A DNA stretch of 64,000 nt, taken from [Muricauda] lutisoli (nom. illeg.). GTDB taxonomy: Bacteria; Bacteroidota; Bacteroidia; Flavobacteriales; Flavobacteriaceae. A program made the position numbers and the translations under genes. The notes beneath the pieces are model-generated. The model saw only the letters and a list, made by a program, of their open reading frames with translations, was not told the origin of the DNA and did no database searches. The stretch is taken from the NCBI RefSeq assembly GCF_017313105.1, contig NZ_JAFLND010000001.1:930001-994000 (forward strand), in the 5' to 3' direction. Position 1 is the stretch's first letter. Each line of letters opens with the position of its first letter. This document shows positions 38,318 to 57,691 of the stretch, in pieces.

Positions 38318-41179
38318 TTAAACTGCTCGTTTAATTTTTTGATTTGTATTGTCCAATTCTTTCTTTAAAAACTTAGCCGTGTAGCTTTTGTCGTCTTTCG
38401 CAACTTCTTCTGGAGTTCCCGCTGCAACAACTGTTCCACCACCTCTTCCTCCTTCGTATCCAATGTCTATTATATGGTCCATCATTTTTATAACGTCCAT
38501 ATTATGTTCTATCACCAATATGGTATTGCCTTTATTCACTAGGCGCTCAAGTACTTCCATAAGTACCCGGATATCTTCAAAATGTAAGCCTGTGGTCGGT
38601 TCGTCGAGGATGTAAAACGTGTTTCCAGTATCTCTTTTGGAAAGCTCTGTTGCCAATTTCACCCTTTGGGCCTCTCCACCAGAGAGGGTAGTGGATTGCT
38701 GTCCTAAAGATATATAACCCAAACCTACATCTTTTATTGTCTTAAGTTTACGATGAATTTTTGGAATATTCTCAAAGAAATCCACTGCTTCGTTGATGGT
38801 CATCTCCAACACATCCGCAATGGATTTTCCCTTGTAGCGTATTTCCAAGGTTTCCCGGTTAAATCTTTTGCCATTACAAGTCTCGCATTCCACGTAAACA
38901 TCGGGCAAAAAGTTCATTTCTATGACTTTGAGCCCCCCACCTTGACAGGTCTCACATCTTCCACCTGCCACATTAAAGCTAAAACGGCCAGGTTTGTAGC
39001 CGCGAATGGTAGCTTCCGTGGTTTTGGAGAAAAGTGAACGTATTTCACTAAAAACACCTGTATAGGTGGCTGGATTTGACCTTGGTGTACGCCCAATCGG
39101 TGATTGGTTGATATCAATGACCTTGTCTATGTGCTCCAGCCCTTTAATTTTTTTGTAAGGCATCGGTTTTTTAACTCCATTAAAGTAATGGGCGTTCATA
39201 ATAGGGTAGAGGGTTTCGTTTACCAAAGTGGACTTGCCACTGCCCGATACTCCCGTGACCCCTATTAGGTTTCCCAAAGGGAAATCCACGGTAACATTCT
39301 TAAGGTTGTTGCCCGTACAACCGGATAGGGTGATTTTTTTGCCCGTTCCCTTGCGTCTTTCCTTAGGTACGGGAATTTCCATCTCGCCCGTAATGTACTG
39401 TGCCGTGATGGTGTGGTGGTCGATAAGTTCTTTTGGACTTCCTTCAGAAATGATTTCACCCCCATGTTTTCCTGCTTTTGGGCCAATGTCGATAACATGG
39501 TCGGCACATTCGATCATATCCCGGTCGTGTTCCACTACGATTACAGAATTACCAATATCGCGAAGTGCTTCCAGGGAATGGATCAGTCGTTCGTTGTCAC
39601 GTTGGTGCAAACCTATACTTGGTTCATCCAAAATGTAGAGCACTCCCACCAATTGCGAGCCGATTTGGGTGGCCAATCGGATGCGCTGTGCTTCGCCTCC
39701 CGACAACGATTTGGAGCTTCGGTTCAATGAGAGGTAGTCAAGCCCCACATCCAATAAAAAACCAACTCGGGCCTTAATTTCCTTAATGATTTCCTCGGCG
39801 ATTTTCTTTTGGTTCCCCTCCAAGGTATCTTCCAAATGTTTGAAGAAGTTGGCAAGTTCGGCAATGTCCATCTGGGCCAACTCCGCAATATTTTTACCAT
39901 CTATTTTAAAATAGAGGGATTCTTTTCGCAATCGGGAACCTTCACAAGCAGGACATTCCACCTTGTCCATATACTCCTTCGCCCATCGTTTTATAGATGT
40001 CGAGTTGGCTTCTTCGTACTGTGTTTTGATGAAGTTGGAAATGCCCTCGTAATCAATTTTGTACTGTCTTTTTACACCCAGGCTTTTGGAATCCACTTCA
40101 AAACTTTCCTTACCGCCATTTAAAATAACGTTCATGGCTTCTTCTGGAATCTTTTCAATTGCATCCGATAGGTCAAAATTGTAGCGTTGTGCAATAGTTT
40201 CCAATTGTTTGAAGGCCCAGGATTTTTTGTATTCGCCAAGGGGAGCAAGTCCGCCGGATTTGATGGATACTTTTTTGTTCGGGATGATTTTATGCTCGTT
40301 CACCTGAAACACGTGGCCCAATCCGCTGCATTCGGGACACATCCCTTTTGGCGAGTTAAAGGAAAACGTATTGGGCTCAGGAGTGGGGTAGGAGATGCCC
40401 GATGATGGACACATTAAATCCCTACTGAAATACCTTGGCACGGATTCACCCTCCTCCAGAACCATGAGGACGTTGTCCCCACTGTACATGGCGGTGTTGA
40501 TGGTCTCGCTCAATCGTTTGTGGAAATCTTCACTATCGCCCACCTTTAAACGATCTATTACAATTTCGATATCGTGGGTTTTGTACCGGTCTACTTTCAT
40601 CCCCTTGGTGATGTCCATGATCTCACCATCCACTCGTACCTTTACAAAGCCTTGTTTAGCAATCTGCTCAAAAAGTTCGCGATAGTGCCCTTTTCTCGAT
40701 TTGATAATAGGGGCCAATACATTTATTTTTTTGTCTTTGTACGATGCAATGATCAAATCTTTGATTTGCTCATCGCTGTAGCTCACCATTTTTTCGCCCG
40801 TGTTGTAACTGTAAGCGTCACCAGCTCTGGCAAACAAAAGTCGGAGGAAGTCATAGACCTCGGTAATGGTGCCTACTGTGGAGCGAGGAGACTTTGAGGT
40901 TGTTTTTTGTTCAATGGCAATTACAGGGGACAACCCGTCGATTTTATCCACATCGGGGCGTTCCAATCCGCCCAAAAACTGTCTAGCGTAGGCCGAAAAA
41001 GTTTCAATATACCTTCGCTGGCCTTCGGCGTAGATGGTATCGAAGGCCAAAGAGGATTTTCCACTCCCGGAAAGCCCTGTGATCACGACCAGCTTTTCGC
41101 GTGGTATGGTAACATCTATATTTTTGAGATTATGGACCCTTGCGCCCTTAACCTCAATATTTTCTTCGTAATTGATCAT
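38318..41179 (-). CDS. uvrA: UvrABC excinuclease subunit A
   Basis: Damage-recognition ATPase of nucleotide excision repair, 953 residues. Two ABC ATPase modules are present: [14 protein letters not shown] and [14 protein letters not shown] as Walker A motifs, with SLSGGEAQR and TLSGGEAQR signatures. The zinc modules are intact (CPSSG with CPECSG, then CETCQGG with CETCNG). A -7 element precedes it. I see no copy of the LexA-like operator found at 45719-45797 in front of it. Confidence 0.97.
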
Positions 41180-43108: not shown

Positions 43109-43642
43109 ATGATTATGAAATTATTGGGCATTGGCTCCAGAATAGACCACCCGGAATATGGCAAGGGTGTGGTCACTAACGTATCATCCAAACATTATTG
43201 GGTTACCTTTTTGGAAAACGGGTTGGAAACCATAGATCTCGATGCTGATTTTGAAGTAATCGAAGGTGTGGAGGACGAAGTGGACAGTGTAAGTTTTTTT
43301 GATGTGGAACGCTCCTTGGTGAAAATACTGGAGAAATGGAGCGACACCCATGAAAAAGTGGCCATAGCGGATAAATGGAAAGGCGGGAAACTGATTTTGG
43401 AACCCGATGATGGCACAGCAAACAAGGAAATGCCGATTGAGACTTTTTTCCATAAAATTGTAATGGTGCGCGATCGCATCCGTGTGATGGAGCAAAAGAT
43501 TAACAGCAGCAAGAACCTGGAAGACCAAGAAAAAGTGTATCTACAGCAATATATCACACGTATTTATGGTAGCTTAACCAGTTTTAATGTGCTGTTCAAA
43601 ACCAAAAGCGACCATTTTGTGGGGGAGAGGGGAAAGGGATAA
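43109..43642 (+). CDS. Conserved protein with a Tudor/KOW-like N-terminal domain
   Basis: 177 residues (the second ATG at 43115 is equally possible). The N-terminal domain (about 5-50: GIGSRIDHPEYGKGVVTNV, then WVTFLENGLETIDL) aligns with the C-terminal Tudor-like domain of the UvrD helicase at 20711-23041 (GARVNHTRFGRGKI). The rest is helical and charged (about 60-175). I do not recognise the whole protein. It is convergent with the DUF4130 repair gene with no spacing, and close to uvrA. A nucleic-acid or RNA-polymerase contact is an inference only. Confidence 0.72.
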   Translation: MIMKLLGIGSRIDHPEYGKGVVTNVSSKHYWVTFLENGLETIDLDADFEVIEGVEDEVDSVSFFDVERSLVKILEKWSDTHEKVAIADKWKGGKLILEPDDGTANKEMPIETFFHKIVMVRDRIRVMEQKINSSKNLEDQEKVYLQQYITRIYGSLTSFNVLFKTKSDHFVGERGKG

Positions 43643-44419
43643 TTAAACCGCCTCCTTTTTCTCACTCAAATATTTCCAATATCGTTTTGGCACATGTTGG
43701 GTATGTAATTTAGGATTGATACGTGAAGAGATATTGGTGCTTTTAAAATAATCGTTCCAAAGGGTCTGGTATTCGTATTCCTCATGTGTAAAGACGTCAC
43801 TTTTCGCGGTTTTGTTGTGATGTATGTCCTTTAAGTTCAAGGAAACCATCTCCACATGGTCCAAATCGTAATAAATACCATATTTGCGTTTTACATCGTA
43901 GATCAGCCATTTTTGGTCCGCGTACCGATCACGAAAATGTTTGGAGATTAAGGGCAATACATCAAAATCGGGTTCAATATTGGCAAAATATATATCGTCC
44001 TTGGTCAATTGAAACCTAACAAAAGCTTCCATTCGATGCTTTTCACGTCCCACTTTTCTGGCCAGTTGGGCTATGTATAGTACAGTGCTGTCCGAATAAT
44101 CCAAATACTTGCCATTTTTGGTGCGCATTAATTTTTGAATATAGGAGTAAAGCATCATTTCCACGCCTTCGGTTTCGCTCAAAAAAGCAAAATAGACGTT
44201 CGAAATGGCGTTGTGGCTCCTGTTGCGGATACCGTTCCAAACTCGTTTGGCTTTTTCTACATGGGTAAAAACGGTTTCGGTTTCTGAAAACAATCCGTTT
44301 TGGGATTGATTGTTCTTTTGAATGTCCGCCACATTGATCTTTTCATCAAAGGCGACGAAAACGGCGGTCAAGAATCCGTTAAAACTACCGTCATAAATTA
44401 AGGTTGTTGAAGCATTCAT
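43643..44419 (-). CDS. Putative DNA-repair protein, DUF4130 (TIGR03915 family)
   Basis: 258 residues. Recognised by STLIYDGSFNGFLTAVF at the N-terminus and VGREKHRMEAFVRFQ with KYGIYYD in the middle, the DUF4130 signature. It is paired with the radical-SAM protein just upstream, a pairing conserved across bacteria and long predicted to be a DNA modification or repair system. This version ends with the usual SSRINPKLHTQHVPKRYW and lacks the uracil-DNA-glycosylase-like extension present in some members. Biochemical activity is unproven. Confidence 0.88.
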   Translation of the reverse strand: MNASTTLIYDGSFNGFLTAVFVAFDEKINVADIQKNNQSQNGLFSETETVFTHVEKAKRVWNGIRNRSHNAISNVYFAFLSETEGVEMMLYSYIQKLMRTKNGKYLDYSDSTVLYIAQLARKVGREKHRMEAFVRFQLTKDDIYFANIEPDFDVLPLISKHFRDRYADQKWLIYDVKRKYGIYYDLDHVEMVSLNLKDIHHNKTAKSDVFTHEEYEYQTLWNDYFKSTNISSRINPKLHTQHVPKRYWKYLSEKKEAV

Positions 44420-44452
44420 AGCGCTTATATTTTGTGTTTTTTTGTGTCACTA

Positions 44453-45715
44453 TTAATTGAATAATGACAATTGCGTGCTGTACTGATTCCGAAATTTCCC
44501 AGAGGAGTTTTGTAGTATCATACCTTTTATTTTATCCGCGTCCAAGTCGCGACGCTCCCAATGCCGGGAGTCGCATACCATGAAATATTGTGCACGGTTG
44601 AGGGCCACACCAATCTTTTTGAGATGGTCCCAGTTCAATTTCCTAAACTTTCTTGCTTTTATAATTTTGTCCACCGAGCGCATGCCAATGCCTGGAATTC
44701 GGGCCAAAAGGCGCTTATCTGCCGTATTTACATCCACTGGAAAATGATGAAGGTTTCGCAAAGCCCAAGAGAGTTTCGGGTCCACATCCATGTCCAAGTT
44801 GGGATGCCGGTTGTTCAAGATTTCCCCGATGGAAAAGCCATAAAAACGCAACAACCAATCCGTCTGGTACAATCGGTTTTCGCGCAACATCGGCACTTGC
44901 GACCCAATGGCAGGCAAACGCGAGTCGTGGGTCACGGGAACGTACCCGGAATAGTATACACGCTTCATATGGAACGTTTTGTAATAATAGGCCGCGGAAT
45001 ACATGATATCCTTGTCCGATTCTCCAGATGCTCCTACAATCATTTGAGTGCTTTGACCCGCTGGCGCATATTTTGGGGTACTTTTTATGATTTCCCGCTC
45101 GGATTTATAACGTACGATTTCGTTTTTCACCTTCTCCATAGGTTTGGTGAAATCTTCATGCTTTTTGTCAGGCGCCAATAATTTGAGCCCAGAGATAGTG
45201 GGAACTTCAATATTTACGGAAAGCCGGTCGGCATAAAGCCCAGCTTCGTACATTAATTCATCGCTTGCCCCAGGGATTGACTTTAAATGGATGTATCCAT
45301 TAAAATTTTCCTCTTCACGAAGTTTTTTAGCTACGGATACCAAGCGCTCCATAGTATGGTCTGGACTTTTAAATATGCCGGAACTCAAAAAAAGTCCTTC
45401 AATATAATTTCTACGATAAAAATTGATGGTAAGATCGACCACTTCTTGCACCTTGAAAGCAGCTCTAGGCACATCATTGCTTTTTCGGGTAACACAGTAG
45501 GCACAATCAAAAATGCAATGGTTGGTCAACAAGATCTTTAATAGGGACACACACCGCCCATCTGCTGTGTAGCTATGACAAATTCCCATTTTGGAAGCAT
45601 TGCCCAACCCTTTTCCTTTATTGGTCCTATCGCTTCCGCTACTGGCACAGGAGACATCGTACTTGGCCGCATCTGCCAATATGTTCAGTTTTTCACGTAT
45701 CCTATCAAAATTCAT
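44453..45715 (-). CDS. Putative DNA modification/repair radical-SAM protein (TIGR03916 family)
   Basis: 420 residues from the ATG at 45715; the frame is open to a TTG at 45733, but that would use codons inside the operator. CxxxCxxC (Cys67, Cys71, Cys74, in CIFDCAYC) binds the [4Fe-4S] cluster that cleaves S-adenosylmethionine. A C-terminal helix-hairpin-helix (about 327-357, VDVNTADKRLLARIPGIG) suggests DNA binding. Together with the DUF4130 protein 33 bases downstream it forms a predicted DNA-repair pair. Its promoter and start are covered by inverted repeats shared with the divergent LexA-like regulator. Confidence 0.9.
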   Translation of the reverse strand: MNFDRIREKLNILADAAKYDVSCASSGSDRTNKGKGLGNASKMGICHSYTADGRCVSLLKILLTNHCIFDCAYCVTRKSNDVPRAAFKVQEVVDLTINFYRRNYIEGLFLSSGIFKSPDHTMERLVSVAKKLREEENFNGYIHLKSIPGASDELMYEAGLYADRLSVNIEVPTISGLKLLAPDKKHEDFTKPMEKVKNEIVRYKSEREIIKSTPKYAPAGQSTQMIVGASGESDKDIMYSAAYYYKTFHMKRVYYSGYVPVTHDSRLPAIGSQVPMLRENRLYQTDWLLRFYGFSIGEILNNRHPNLDMDVDPKLSWALRNLHHFPVDVNTADKRLLARIPGIGMRSVDKIIKARKFRKLNWDHLKKIGVALNRAQYFMVCDSRHWERRDLDADKIKGMILQNSSGKFRNQYSTQLSLFN

Positions 45716-45718
45716 AAC

Positions 45719-45733
45719 TTGGAAATATTCCAA
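45719..45733. promoter_or_regulatory. Operator-like inverted repeat O1
   Basis: TTGGAA-ATA-TTCCAA, six-base arms, perfect. It begins four bases before the radical-SAM ATG on the minus strand and covers its predicted transcription start. Confidence 0.8.
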
Positions 45734-45734
45734 T

Positions 45735-45742
45735 CAAATATA
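45735..45742 (-). promoter_or_regulatory. -7 element TATATTTG of the radical-SAM repair operon
   Basis: Minus-strand TATATTTG (plus strand CAAATATA), 20 bases before the ATG at 45715. It lies between O1 and O2 and touches the first base of O2, so a bound repressor should block it. Confidence 0.65.
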
Positions 45743-45756
45743 TGGATATAATCCAA
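45742..45756. promoter_or_regulatory. Operator-like inverted repeat O2
   Basis: ATGGAT-ATA-ATCCAA: arms TGGAT/ATCCA match perfectly around the same ATA spacer. Centre 23 bp from O1. Confidence 0.75.
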
Positions 45757-45759
45757 ATA

Positions 45760-45774
45760 ATGGAAATAATCCAT
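45760..45774. promoter_or_regulatory. Operator-like inverted repeat O3
   Basis: ATGGAA-ATA-ATCCAT, arms ATGGA/TCCAT around the same core with one inner mismatch. Centre 18 bp from O2, in the space between the two divergent promoters. Confidence 0.7.
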
Positions 45775-45781
45775 AAAAGTT

Positions 45782-45811
45782 TTTGGAAATATTCCAAAAT
45801 AGCTATATTTG
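45782..45811 (+). promoter_or_regulatory. Promoter of the LexA-like regulator
   Basis: -33 TTTG (45782-45785), 18-bp spacer, -7 TATATTTG (45804-45811), a near-ideal Bacteroidota promoter. The ATG follows 44 bases after. Operator O4 covers the -33 element. Confidence 0.75.
45783..45797. promoter_or_regulatory. Operator-like inverted repeat O4
   Basis: TTGGAA-ATA-TTCCAA, identical to O1 and extendable to eight-base arms (TTTTGGAA/TTCCAAAA). Centre 23 bp from O3. Overlaps the -33 box of the regulator, as expected for autorepression. Confidence 0.82.
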
Positions 45812-45855
45812 AGAATGGATTGTCACTTCGATATGTTCGATTTGATATTATCAAC

Positions 45856-46614
45856 ATGATGATGGAAAATGAAATAACCCTAAAACGATTTACCGATATC
45901 CGCAGGGAACTTGGCTACACTCAAACCGAGTTTGCCAAATTACTGGGGGTTAAAAATACCACGGCCGACATAGAGCGTGGTAGAACCAAGCTTTCCGGTA
46001 AAGTAGTGGCCGAACTTTTGAAGCAATTCAAAATAAATCCGTTATGGCTTTTCGGCGAAAGTGATCAAAAACATTTGGATACTTCCAAAACCAGTGTTAT
46101 TCCAAAAGTAGTTACGGTTGACAATTCCGAAAATGACAACATGGTGATGGTAAACGCCAAGGCTGCTGCAGGGTATCCACAGAATATTTCTGATACTAGT
46201 TGGTATAGGCAGTTGCCTGCTTTTGATATGCCCATTCCCGAGTTCCGAAATGCCACCTATCGTGGTTTTCAGGTTGAAGGAGACAGTATGCTTCCCAATT
46301 TAAGACCCAATGATTGGGTGTTGGCGCGTGCCATTGAACATATCGATCATGTGAGCCCCAATAAAATGTATGTTGTGGTATTGCAGGATTCAGTAATGGT
46401 AAAAAAAATAGAGCGCAAGCCCAATTCCAATAACATCACCTTGGTCTCTTTAAACGAAACCTACCCTCCGTACGAAATCAAACCTTTTCAAATACAGGAA
46501 ATCTGGGAGGTGAGCAGTAAATTGACCTTTAACGTGGATGCAACTACGGAAACTGGCTTGTTAAAACAACTTCAAGAATCCATGGAGGAGTTGAAAAAAC
46601 AAATTGCCAAGTAA
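45856..46614 (+). CDS. LexA-like self-cleaving repressor (XRE helix-turn-helix plus S24 peptidase)
   Basis: 252 residues from the first of three in-frame ATGs (45856, 45859, 45862). An XRE-type helix-turn-helix occupies about 12-65 (ELGYTQTEFAKLLGVKNTT). The S24/LexA domain has a cleavage site AAAGY with the Ala105-Gly106 bond, nucleophile Ser144 in GDSMLP and general base Lys183 in VMVKKIE. This is the layout of repressors that self-cleave on contact with RecA filaments. The frame stays open to 45742, but that would put coding sequence over the promoter and operators. Divergent from the radical-SAM repair pair. RecA dependence is inferred. Confidence 0.9.
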   Translation: MMMENEITLKRFTDIRRELGYTQTEFAKLLGVKNTTADIERGRTKLSGKVVAELLKQFKINPLWLFGESDQKHLDTSKTSVIPKVVTVDNSENDNMVMVNAKAAAGYPQNISDTSWYRQLPAFDMPIPEFRNATYRGFQVEGDSMLPNLRPNDWVLARAIEHIDHVSPNKMYVVVLQDSVMVKKIERKPNSNNITLVSLNETYPPYEIKPFQIQEIWEVSSKLTFNVDATTETGLLKQLQESMEELKKQIAK

Positions 46615-46617
46615 GTT

Positions 46618-47535
46618 TTAAGCAAAGAATTTGTTTTTGATCGCGGTGGCCATGGTGTGGGCCGCACTCTGGTTTAAACGAAACCAGAGCTCAGGTTCAA
46701 AAATTTCCAGTTCGGCCAACGCCCAGTTACCGTCATTGTCCTTAAAAATATCGACTCTTGCGTAAATCGGCATCTCAGGTGCGGCATGTACAACACTTTT
46801 GGCAAATGCTATCTGCTCTTGACTTGGTTCATAATCATGAACCGTTCCACCGAAGTCATCCTGAACCCTGAAATCACCTGGTTTGGCAATCTTTAATACG
46901 GCGTGGGTAAACTCTCCATTAAAAACCATCATGGAGATTTCACCTTCGGAAACGATGTTCCCTTGAAATTCCTGAAGCATCATGGCCTCATTCCCGACCA
47001 ATTCCTTAAAGATGGATTCGTAATTGTTAACCTCGTCTTTTCCTATTTTGTAGGTGTGTCGAGCCGCTCCCGATACACAGGGTTTTAAAATATAGGTGTC
47101 AGCAGTAAAACCATATTCCGATTTTGCCTTTGCAATGGCATTGGCAAGTGTTATCTCTGAATTTTTTTCGGCAAAAACAGTTTTGGGAATGCTTACTCCA
47201 GCGTTGGATAGATCTTGCAAATAGTGCTTATCAATGTTCCAATAAATTAGGTCTTTGGAGTTGATGAATTGTGTTTGTTTTGAAGCTTTCTCCAACCATA
47301 AGGAAAACTCCGCATAACGGTCAAAATAGTCCCAAGTGGTTCGGAACAGGGCATATTTGGTGTTCGACCAATCAAAGTCAGGGTCGTCCCAAGCTTTACG
47401 CACCACATTTAATCCTTGACTTTGCAAAGCTTCCAAAACAAGTTGGTCTTCTTGCAGTACATTTTGGATGTAGGGTGTCTTTTCTTTTGGGGCCACGTAA
47501 CGGTGGTCCGTTAAAACAACAACGTCGAATTCCAT
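46618..47535 (-). CDS. ATP-grasp domain protein of unknown substrate
   Basis: 305 residues. The ATP-grasp pattern runs through YILKPCVSGAARHTYKI (ATP-binding lysine and loop), AMMLQEFQGNI, GEISMMVFNGEF and the metal-binding tail YARVDIFKDNDGNWALAELEIFEPEL. It resembles RimK/glutathione-synthetase-like and DcsG-type ligases that join a carboxylate to an amine. No biosynthetic partners are nearby. Convergent with the LexA-like gene, three bases apart, and only 10 bases upstream of the gamma-glutamyltransferase gene on the same strand. Confidence 0.8.
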   Translation of the reverse strand: MEFDVVVLTDHRYVAPKEKTPYIQNVLQEDQLVLEALQSQGLNVVRKAWDDPDFDWSNTKYALFRTTWDYFDRYAEFSLWLEKASKQTQFINSKDLIYWNIDKHYLQDLSNAGVSIPKTVFAEKNSEITLANAIAKAKSEYGFTADTYILKPCVSGAARHTYKIGKDEVNNYESIFKELVGNEAMMLQEFQGNIVSEGEISMMVFNGEFTHAVLKIAKPGDFRVQDDFGGTVHDYEPSQEQIAFAKSVVHAAPEMPIYARVDIFKDNDGNWALAELEIFEPELWFRLNQSAAHTMATAIKNKFFA

Positions 47536-54775: not shown

Positions 54776-57691
54776 TTGGATAAAAAATTGTTAAAAGACC
54801 TCTCATTGGCCTTAAAAGGTGAGTTGTTGTTCGATAATTTGAGCAAGGCCATCTATGCCACAGATGCCTCCGTATATAGAAAGTTGCCCATGGCGGTGGC
54901 CTACCCCAAAAATGCTGATGACCTTAAGGTTTTACTGAATTTTGCCAATGGGAATAAAATTGGATTGATTCCAAGAACAGCGGGAACATCTTTGGCCGGA
55001 CAATGTGTGGGAGAAGGGATTGTGGTCGATGTAAGTCGTTATTTCACCAAAATCATTAGTCTGGACAAAGACAAAAAACAAGTTACCTTAGAGCCTGGCG
55101 TGGTACGTGATGAGCTTAATCAATATTTAAAACCTTTCGGTCTTTTCTTCGGCCCCAATACATCTACGTCCAACCGATGTATGATTGGCGGTATGGTCGG
55201 CAACAATTCTTCTGGGACAACATCCATCCAATACGGTGTTACCAGGGATAAGGTTGTTGCCATGCAATGTGTGCTTTCGGACGGAAGTGATGCTTATTTC
55301 TCCGATATTTCCGAAGAAGAGTTTGAAAAGAAGAAACAAGGGCATTCATTAGAAGCCAAAATCTACAATGAACTTTACGAGGAGCTTTCCGAACAAGAAA
55401 CTCAGCACCATATAAAATCCGAATTTCCAAAACCTAGTATTCACAGAAGAAATACCGGGTACGCAGTGGATGAACTGCTCAAAAACAACATTTTTGGGGA
55501 TGATGAAGTCAACTTCAACATGTGTAAATTGTTGTCCGGAAGCGAAGGTACACTGGCCTTTACCACATCGGTAACACTGCAACTTGATGACTTACCTCCG
55601 CCATATGCAGCCATGGTAGCCACGCATTATAGAACATTGGAGGATTGTTTGAGCGATGTTGCACCTGTTATGCAACATAGCCTCCATCTATGTGAAATGA
55701 TGGACAAAGTAATTCTGGACTGTACCAAAAACAACAGGGCCCAATTGGCCAATCGTTTTTTTGTGGACGGTGACCCAGCGGGTATTTTGATGTTGGAAGT
55801 AAAGGCCGATTCCAAGGAAGATTTGGACAAACAACTGGATGAGTTGTTAAAAACGATTGAAAAGTCCGGCTTGAGCTACGCCAATCCTATTTTATATGGA
55901 GAGGACATCAATAAGGCGATAGAACTTCGTAAAGCAGGTCTTGGTCTGTTGGGCAATATGGTGGGGGATAGAAAAGCGGTGGCCTGTATTGAGGATACGG
56001 CCGTTGCTTTGGAGGACCTAAAAGATTTTATCGGCGAGTTTTCCCAGATCATGAAAGGGTATAACCAAGACGCTGTATATTATGCCCATGCAGGTGCTGG
56101 AGAATTGCATTTGCGGCCCATACTTAATTTAAAGAAATCGGAGGATGTGGTGTTGTTCCGAAGCATTACCACCGATGTGGCCAAGTTGACCAAAAAATAT
56201 CATGGAAGTTTTAGTGGAGAGCACGGGGATGGAATTGTGCGAGCAGAGTTCATACCACTGATGATAGGCGATACCAACTATGGGCTCTTGAAAAGGGTAA
56301 AAGCACTTTTTGACCCAAATTTGGTGCTGAACCCGGGGAAAATTGTGGATGCATACCCAATGGATGAGTCTTTGCGCTACAAAGTTGACCGCAAAGAGCC
56401 CGTGGTAAAAACACTGCTGGATTTTTCGGATAGTGAAGGGATTTTAAAAGCTGCCGAAAAATGCAATGGTAGCGGTGATTGCAGAAAGAGCCATAACATG
56501 AACGGTGGTATGTGCCCGAGCTACCAAGCCACCAAAGATGAAAAGGACACTACACGTGCAAGGGCCAATGCATTGCGTGAATTTTTGACCAATTCTGAAA
56601 AAACCAATCGGTTCGACCACAAAGAACTTAAAACGGCATTCGACCTTTGTTTGAGCTGCAAGGCCTGCGCCAGCGAATGTCCCAGCAATGTGGATGTTGC
56701 CGCCCTAAAGGCCGAATTCCTATATAATTACCAAGAGGCCAACGGATATTCCTTGCGAAGCAAGCTGTTTGCCCACAACACCCGATTGAATGCCATGGGA
56801 AGCACGGTTTCCGGCATCGCGAACTGGATGTACGAGTCCAAAATGGTCGGGGGAACACTTAAAAAAGCAGTAGGGGTGGCCCCGGAGCGCAACTTACCCA
56901 AGGTTGGCCGATTCAATTTTAAAAATCACCTAAAAAAGCATCGTGCAAAGCGAACCTACCTTTCCAAAAAACAGGTCGTCCTTTATATTGATGAGTTTGT
57001 GAAGTATCTGGATATCCAGATCGGGAAGGATGCCATAGAGCTATTGTGCAAATTGGGGTATGACGTGGAACTGTTCTATGGTGAAAGCGGGAGAACTTAC
57101 CTATCCAAAGGATTTTTGAAACAAGCCCAAAAATTGGTGGTCCAGAATATGGAGAATCTGAAAGGTATTTTAAATGAAGGAACCCCGATTGTGGGATTGG
57201 AGCCTTCTGCCATACTTTCGTTCAGGGATGAGTACCAGCGATTGCATGATGACAAGGAACAATTACAGAAATTGGCATCCCAATCATTTTTGATAGAAGA
57301 GTTTTTGGCCGCTGAAATCGCAGCGGGCCATATCACCTCCGATAGCTTTACCGATCAGGAAAAGACCATCAAAATTCACGGACATTGCCATCAAAAAGCG
57401 TTGAGCAATCAAAAAGTAACGTTCGATGTGTTGAATCTCCCCAAAAACTATAAAGTGACGATTATACCATCGGGTTGTTGTGGTATGGCAGGTTCTTTTG
57501 GTTACGAAAAAGAACATTTTGAAATAAGTATGCAGGTAGGTAAGCTAAAGTTGTTTCCCGCGGTGGAGAAAAGTGATGCCGATACTCTGATTGCGGCCAA
57601 CGGAACAAGTTGCAGGCATCAAATAAAGGATGGGACGAAAAGGGAGGCGCAACACCCCGTTTCAATCCTGAGACAGGCCCTTATCGTCTAG
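54776..57691 (+). CDS. Fused FAD-binding/Fe-S oxidoreductase (GlcD-GlcF type, 2-hydroxyacid dehydrogenase)
   Basis: 971 residues. The N-terminal half is an FAD-linked oxidase (PCMH) domain (about 35-260) with GMVGNNSSGT. The C-terminal half is iron-sulfur: CNGSGDC at 563-569, CLSCKACASEC with Cys625, 628, 631 and 635, then a CCG domain with SGCCGMAGSFG at about 900. This is the layout of fused glycolate/D-lactate dehydrogenases that feed electrons to quinones. Substrate not determined. No ATG precedes the FAD domain and a promoter ends 50 bases upstream, so I use the TTG at 54776. Confidence 0.88.
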   Translation: MDKKLLKDLSLALKGELLFDNLSKAIYATDASVYRKLPMAVAYPKNADDLKVLLNFANGNKIGLIPRTAGTSLAGQCVGEGIVVDVSRYFTKIISLDKDKKQVTLEPGVVRDELNQYLKPFGLFFGPNTSTSNRCMIGGMVGNNSSGTTSIQYGVTRDKVVAMQCVLSDGSDAYFSDISEEEFEKKKQGHSLEAKIYNELYEELSEQETQHHIKSEFPKPSIHRRNTGYAVDELLKNNIFGDDEVNFNMCKLLSGSEGTLAFTTSVTLQLDDLPPPYAAMVATHYRTLEDCLSDVAPVMQHSLHLCEMMDKVILDCTKNNRAQLANRFFVDGDPAGILMLEVKADSKEDLDKQLDELLKTIEKSGLSYANPILYGEDINKAIELRKAGLGLLGNMVGDRKAVACIEDTAVALEDLKDFIGEFSQIMKGYNQDAVYYAHAGAGELHLRPILNLKKSEDVVLFRSITTDVAKLTKKYHGSFSGEHGDGIVRAEFIPLMIGDTNYGLLKRVKALFDPNLVLNPGKIVDAYPMDESLRYKVDRKEPVVKTLLDFSDSEGILKAAEKCNGSGDCRKSHNMNGGMCPSYQATKDEKDTTRARANALREFLTNSEKTNRFDHKELKTAFDLCLSCKACASECPSNVDVAALKAEFLYNYQEANGYSLRSKLFAHNTRLNAMGSTVSGIANWMYESKMVGGTLKKAVGVAPERNLPKVGRFNFKNHLKKHRAKRTYLSKKQVVLYIDEFVKYLDIQIGKDAIELLCKLGYDVELFYGESGRTYLSKGFLKQAQKLVVQNMENLKGILNEGTPIVGLEPSAILSFRDEYQRLHDDKEQLQKLASQSFLIEEFLAAEIAAGHITSDSFTDQEKTIKIHGHCHQKALSNQKVTFDVLNLPKNYKVTIIPSGCCGMAGSFGYEKEHFEISMQVGKLKLFPAVEKSDADTLIAANGTSCRHQIKDGTKREAQHPVSILRQALIV

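Follow-up and report, generated by a model that had tools for sequence, protein, structure and literature searches.

Which switch controls the pair formed by a radical-SAM protein of the family TIGR03916 and its DUF4130 partner, and when would a bacterial cell need it? This question is raised by a locus in a stretch of 64,000 nucleotides from [Muricauda] lutisoli (assembly GCF_017313105.1, contig NZ_JAFLND010000001.1, positions 930,001 to 994,000; hereafter the window, to which coordinates refer). There, the gene for an S24 repressor (45856..46614, plus strand) is divergent from an operon encoding the radical-SAM protein (44453..45715, minus strand) and the DUF4130 protein (43643..44419, minus strand). 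The genome of 3.42 Mb has a completeness of 99.97%, and its closest named relatives are Flagellimonas/Allomuricauda. The locus very probably encodes the SOS repressor of Flavobacteriaceae, and the repair pair shares its promoter region.

S24 repressors recognizing the motif GGA-N5-TCC have been described as the non-canonical LexA of Flavobacteriaceae, and the regulator of S. agarivorans has been reported to bind this motif specifically, with mitomycin C inducing the regulon (Sanchez-Osuna et al. 2021, PMC8565304). Since both this repressor system and the pair are already contained in that work, the module in the window is a member of a described system.

The repressor, its operators and its regulon

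The repressor consists of 252 amino acids with an N-terminal HTH_3 and a C-terminal Peptidase_S24 domain (Pfam). An earlier note on this DNA, made from the sequence alone, had described a helix-turn-helix regulator with an S24 domain, an Ala-Gly bond at 105-106, Ser144 and Lys183, and with the ATG at 45856 exactly these residues make up the predicted scissile bond (A105-G106) and dyad (S144, K183). They are invariant across 67 homologs. No match was obtained with the canonical LexA model TIGR00498, which has a winged helix-turn-helix (HTH) where the repressor has HTH_3. The repressor is the sole S24 (PF00717) protein of the genome. S. agarivorans presumably stands for Salegentibacter agarivorans; the homolog from Salegentibacter maritimus has 65% identity to the repressor, and its own promoter has two operators.

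The start-to-start region between the repressor gene and the operon comprises 140 bp and contains four GGA-N5-TCC operators with a spacing of 23, 18, and 23 bp. Operator 1, TTGGAAATATTCCAA (45719..45733), lies 3 bp upstream of the radical-SAM ATG and is followed by operator 2, ATGGATATAATCCAA (45742..45756), operator 3, ATGGAAATAATCCAT (45760..45774), and operator 4, which is again TTGGAAATATTCCAA (45783..45797). Shared operators had been postulated in the earlier note without coordinates; four are present at 45719-45797, whereas 20,000 dinucleotide shuffles of the region gave 0.049 on average and never more than 2. In 41 aligned promoters, mean identity is 89% in the GGA/TCC arms, 80% in the other operator columns, and 76% in the remaining columns. 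Promoters of the Bacteroidota type follow a -33/-7 consensus. A putative repressor promoter of this type, TTTG-N18-TATATTTG (45782..45811, plus strand), carries operator 4 within its spacer, and a putative -7 element of the radical-SAM/DUF4130 operon, TATATTTG (45735..45742, minus strand), is located between operators 1 and 2; both elements are pattern matches only, and no good -33 element was seen for the operon promoter. The anatomy of the four-operator region is established, and recognition of these operators by the repressor would be as published for its relative.

Genome-wide, 16 exact TGGAWWWWWTCCA sites were found, compared with 11 for the reversed control. Six of them are non-coding, with four at this locus, one upstream of a PA0069-family radical-SAM gene, and one upstream of dinB, while the other ten fall within open reading frames. 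One additional, looser site is present in each of the promoters of PA0069 and dinB, and the gene after dinB encodes a DnaE-type polymerase of 999 amino acids (dinB-dnaE2). A further gene for a Y-family polymerase lacks an operator site within 200 bp upstream. The regulon was mapped by pattern searches of the genome, in which degenerate sites may be missed. A wide pattern, TTGGA-N5-TCCAA with one mismatch, gave 418 matches in the genome versus 155 for the reversed control; this was too permissive to be of use, and patterns with AT-rich spacers were therefore employed. An operator-like site at window position 54960 was dropped because it lies within an open reading frame, as do the sites C1:500328 and C5:18058 (contig:position), and two more AGGA-type sites in non-coding DNA (L055, L062) were not counted because they resemble chance occurrences.

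Conservation of the coupling and alternative switches

Among 101 Flavobacteriaceae genomes, one per genus, the radical-SAM gene is present in 27. A divergent repressor together with at least two GGA-N5-TCC operators was found in 16 of these pair-bearing genera, and two more have operators without an adjacent repressor. The other nine have neither an adjacent repressor nor GGA-N5-TCC upstream of the pair, which speaks against a general assignment of the pair to this regulon; the coupling is therefore not universal. Within 78 readable named loci, a divergent repressor is present in 49, each of which has two or more operators; only 4.6% of random 250-bp stretches carry even one such site. The central proposal of the earlier note, that the pair is tied to a damage-sensing regulator, is supported by this conservation in 49 of 49 loci together with the array of four operators, the map of operators across the genome, and the presence of a single S24 protein. 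Control of the pair by an S24 repressor with the predicted capacity for self-cleavage is thus supported, and it is not new (PMC8565304). The same note had called the extent of this control in other Bacteroidota unknown, which is outdated, as it has largely been mapped (PMC8565304), and in Clostridium acetobutylicum an operon whose radical-SAM gene is annotated alike has also been predicted to be under LexA control (CAC3343-CAC3344; PMC3828012).

In some relatives, the pair is connected to other switches of the S24 type. At five Formosa/Cellulophaga loci (L177, L179, L182, L188, L189), the gene divergent from the pair encodes another kind of XRE-S24 protein of ~200 amino acids; its C-terminal domain matches models of LexA and UmuD and has a Cys-Gly site in place of Ala-Gly. 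All five promoters contain the palindrome TCAT-N3-ATGA (TATCTCATAATATGAGATA-type), which has a background frequency of 0.6%, and at L189 dinB follows the repressor gene. At several Winogradskyella loci, the promoter of the pair contains dyads of the form CTAN-N5-NTAG, CTACTATATGTAG being one example; the same dyad precedes the genome's own S24 regulator in both Winogradskyella genomes checked, and one Winogradskyella S24 regulator with the dyad has a DnaE-type gene as its divergent neighbor. Two genomes have the pair directly 3' of a DnaE-type gene. Five Aquimarina loci (L193, L194, L201, L203, L210) encode an additional DUF559 protein (E=3.4e-13), which is similar to Vsr and restriction endonucleases (REase); its gene overlaps the radical-SAM start (L193:4361-4741, for example), and in this three-gene operon GGA-N5-TCC dyads precede the DUF559 gene while the repressor lies beyond. 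The recurrence of different S24 repressors next to the pair suggests that damage inducibility matters for the pair itself.

Some further loci were recorded alongside these. L085 and L087 were grouped with the Formosa/Cellulophaga loci, having the same kind of XRE-S24 repressor and a TATCTCATAATATGAGATA-type palindrome. Dyads of the CTAC-N5-GTAG type, which vary the CTAA-N5-TTAG motif known from the literature, occur at the Winogradskyella loci L181, L192, L196, and L200 as well as L225 and L226. At L178, L204, and L081, the promoters of the pair contain a AAACATATGTTT palindrome and none of the known SOS motifs. At L215 (Galbibacter), an S24 regulator appears to be divergent from a second DUF4130-like open reading frame and not from the radical-SAM gene. 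In the window itself, an ATP-grasp gene (46618-47535) is convergent with the repressor gene; its product is related to the D-cycloserine synthetase DcsG and reaches 150 bits with the DcsG model, which is below the cut-off of 360 bits. An open reading frame of 177 amino acids without Pfam or NCBIfam matches (43109-43642) adjoins the DUF4130 gene, and uvrA (38318-41179), at 2.5 kb from the locus, has no exact GGA-N5-TCC operator of the locus type upstream.

The radical-SAM protein and its DUF4130 partner

The radical-SAM protein (COG4277) matches TIGR03916 with 668.7 bits (E=3.6e-201; curated cut-off 343.5) and has the Pfam domains Radical_SAM and, at the C-terminus, HHH_3. Its start is the ATG at 45715, in place of an upstream TTG in the list of open reading frames. 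The CxxxCxxC and helix-hairpin-helix (HHH) motifs that the earlier note had assigned to it are both present, the former as C67-x3-C71-x2-C74. Outside this motif, C23, C46, and C55 are kept in 132 of 132 homologs having that region, and a second, auxiliary Fe-S cluster held by these invariant cysteines is therefore plausible. A sequence search against solved structures yielded just weak HHH matches (RuvA). TIGR03916 is the sole NCBIfam match, and models of spore photoproduct lyase (SplB) were not matched; spore-photoproduct-type or alkylation damage, which the earlier note had suggested for tests of the pair, has no support in the sequence.

The gene for the DUF4130 protein follows after a gap of 33 bp. 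The protein of 258 amino acids is, as the earlier note had stated, a DUF4130 protein, with matches to TIGR03915 (E=1.5e-81, 273.7 bits, curated cut-off 112.25) and Pfam DUF4130 (1.6e-54). Sequence searches revealed no relative among solved structures, and a scan of viral contigs for DUF4130 likewise yielded no relatives. Its fold was predicted by two AlphaFold models, which share most of their alignment and are not fully independent, one seeded with the window protein (pLDDT 78.6, pTM 0.70) and one with an Algoriphagus homolog (84.3 and 0.78). The top five PDB rows for the window-seeded model comprise PAP phosphatase, a DHH-domain protein, CDC45, and RecJ2. For the Algoriphagus-seeded model, eight of the eight top PDB matches belong to the DHH superfamily (PggH, PAP phosphatase, RecJ with DNA, CDC45), with PggH as the best match (E=1.7e-4, prob 1.00). 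Named matches in a viral structure library are mostly DHH phosphohydrolases, NrnB, and RecJ. In addition, the DUF4130 protein has the outline of DHH motif I, D-x-[ST]-x-[EDN]-G, with D10 and G15 invariant, Ser or Thr at position 12, and mostly an acidic residue or Asn at position 14; R59 is invariant as well.

Several points weigh against this assignment. The TM-scores of the DHH matches are low (~0.24-0.43), and hhalign comparisons with NrnA and RecJ profiles, made with shallow alignments, gave no significant match, so that the DHH/RecJ/Cdc45 relationship is a structural prediction only. Motif I is only partly kept, its middle metal-binding Asp being replaced by Ser or Thr, and a DHH triplet (motif III) was not seen; catalysis by DUF4130 is therefore doubtful. 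On balance, there is about an even chance that DUF4130 is a divergent, possibly non-catalytic DHH-like protein.

Proposed mechanism and relation to known systems

As long as the cell is undamaged, the S24 repressor would occupy the four operators as dimers and silence its own gene along with the radical-SAM/DUF4130 operon, and the same repressor would also shut off dinB-dnaE2 and the PA0069-type radical-SAM gene. Upon DNA damage, filaments of RecA on single-stranded DNA would stimulate self-cleavage of the repressor at Ala105-Gly106 via Ser144/Lys183. Cleavage would free the operators, and the pair would be produced along with the translesion polymerases. The radical-SAM protein would then most likely act by radical chemistry on a base that is damaged or single-stranded, and DUF4130 would most likely serve as a divergent DHH/RecJ/Cdc45-type partner that binds nucleic acids or processes phosphoesters and is not a uracil-DNA glycosylase (UDG). 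This division of labor within the pair, which draws on the predicted fold, is held with confidence that is evenly balanced. A damage-induced radical-SAM enzyme with a RecJ/Cdc45-like partner acting on single-stranded DNA would be the most likely mechanism. A more far-reaching version can only be offered tentatively: DUF4130 might represent an unrecognized, probably degenerate branch of the DHH/RecJ/Cdc45 proteins that holds or trims single-stranded DNA while the dedicated radical-SAM protein alters a damaged base, both acting in a novel form of SOS repair, with the nuclease-like DUF559 protein joining in Aquimarina and at least three different S24-type switches in control.

The S24 protein could instead be a CI repressor of the phage type that has been domesticated and serves local autoregulation in response to another signal, which would place the pair outside the SOS response. 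Its best phage-family match is indeed a transcriptional repressor (phrog_4, 1.3e-26), and the missing match to the canonical LexA model points in the same direction. However, the same operators precede dinB-dnaE2 and the PA0069-type radical-SAM gene, the genome has no other S24 protein, and the published relative binds the motif and has a regulon induced by mitomycin C (PMC8565304), which makes such a local role very improbable. Even less credence is given to the proposal that the operon is a UDG base-excision system correcting errors of the SOS polymerases. This proposal originates from the same publication, in which a COG1573-COG4277 operon is a conserved predicted member of the regulon and is labelled with UDG (PMC8565304), and NCBIfam likewise names TIGR03916 'rSAM_link_UDG'. 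The label does not fit the Bacteroidota operon: a UDG domain is absent from the window protein and from all 47 Bacteroidota DUF4130 proteins (0/47), and the predicted fold of DUF4130 is DHH-like and not UDG-like. Bacteroidota open frames for TIGR03915 are almost all shorter than 350 amino acids, and the one genome out of 99 with a frame >371 amino acids has no clear second domain there by eye.

More room is left for the view that the pair makes or removes a DNA modification or takes part in phage defence, and that it does not repair lesions although a damage switch happens to control it. The description of the NCBIfam family as 'DNA modification/repair', the patchy distribution over 27 of 101 genera, and the suggestion that DUF4130, noted as a predicted mutagenesis-related enzyme, modifies thymines (PMC3765255) are in line with such a function. 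It is nevertheless considered unlikely, as the neighbors of the pair across clades repeatedly include damage-type S24 repressors and DnaE-type polymerase operons, and once dinB, and as LexA control is predicted in Clostridium, too (PMC3828012). Firm SOS control of this widespread pair would show when to look for its activity, and the DHH-like prediction replaces the idea of a uracil glycosylase with a concrete hypothesis for the target of DUF4130, namely single-stranded nucleic acid or a phosphodiester.

Several known systems resemble the module in part. SplB is also a radical-SAM enzyme of DNA repair and is SOS-controlled in several bacteria, whereas the protein in the window matches only TIGR03916 and has a C-terminal HHH domain and three extra invariant cysteines. 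The DHH superfamily, including RecJ, NrnA/PggH, PAP phosphatase, and Cdc45, provides the top structural matches and the outline of motif I for DUF4130, which differs in its low TM-scores, the lack of a profile match, the replaced middle Asp of motif I, and the absence of a visible motif III. CAC3343-CAC3344 of Clostridium acetobutylicum (PMC3828012) shares the radical-SAM annotation, a partner of unknown function (CAC3344, compared by description), and the predicted control by a damage repressor, but it is assigned to canonical LexA, whereas the S24 repressor proposed to control the pair in the window differs in type and in its motif.

The closest counterpart is the non-canonical LexA system (PMC8565304), which agrees with the module in the combination of HTH_3 and S24 domains, the Ala-Gly/Ser/Lys residues, multiple GGA-N5-TCC operators, and autoregulation. 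Targets common to both are dinB with dnaE, a radical-SAM gene (COG1533), and the COG1573-COG4277 operon. Differences concern the small regulon found here, which covers three intergenic regions, the second protein of the pair, which is devoid of the UDG domain named in the publication, and the divergent four-operator architecture with the repressor, which is detailed here locus by locus. Beyond the published account, the present analysis removes the UDG label for Bacteroidota and suggests a DHH-like fold for DUF4130. It also adds the coupling of the pair to several different S24 switches and the DUF559 nuclease-like gene in Aquimarina.

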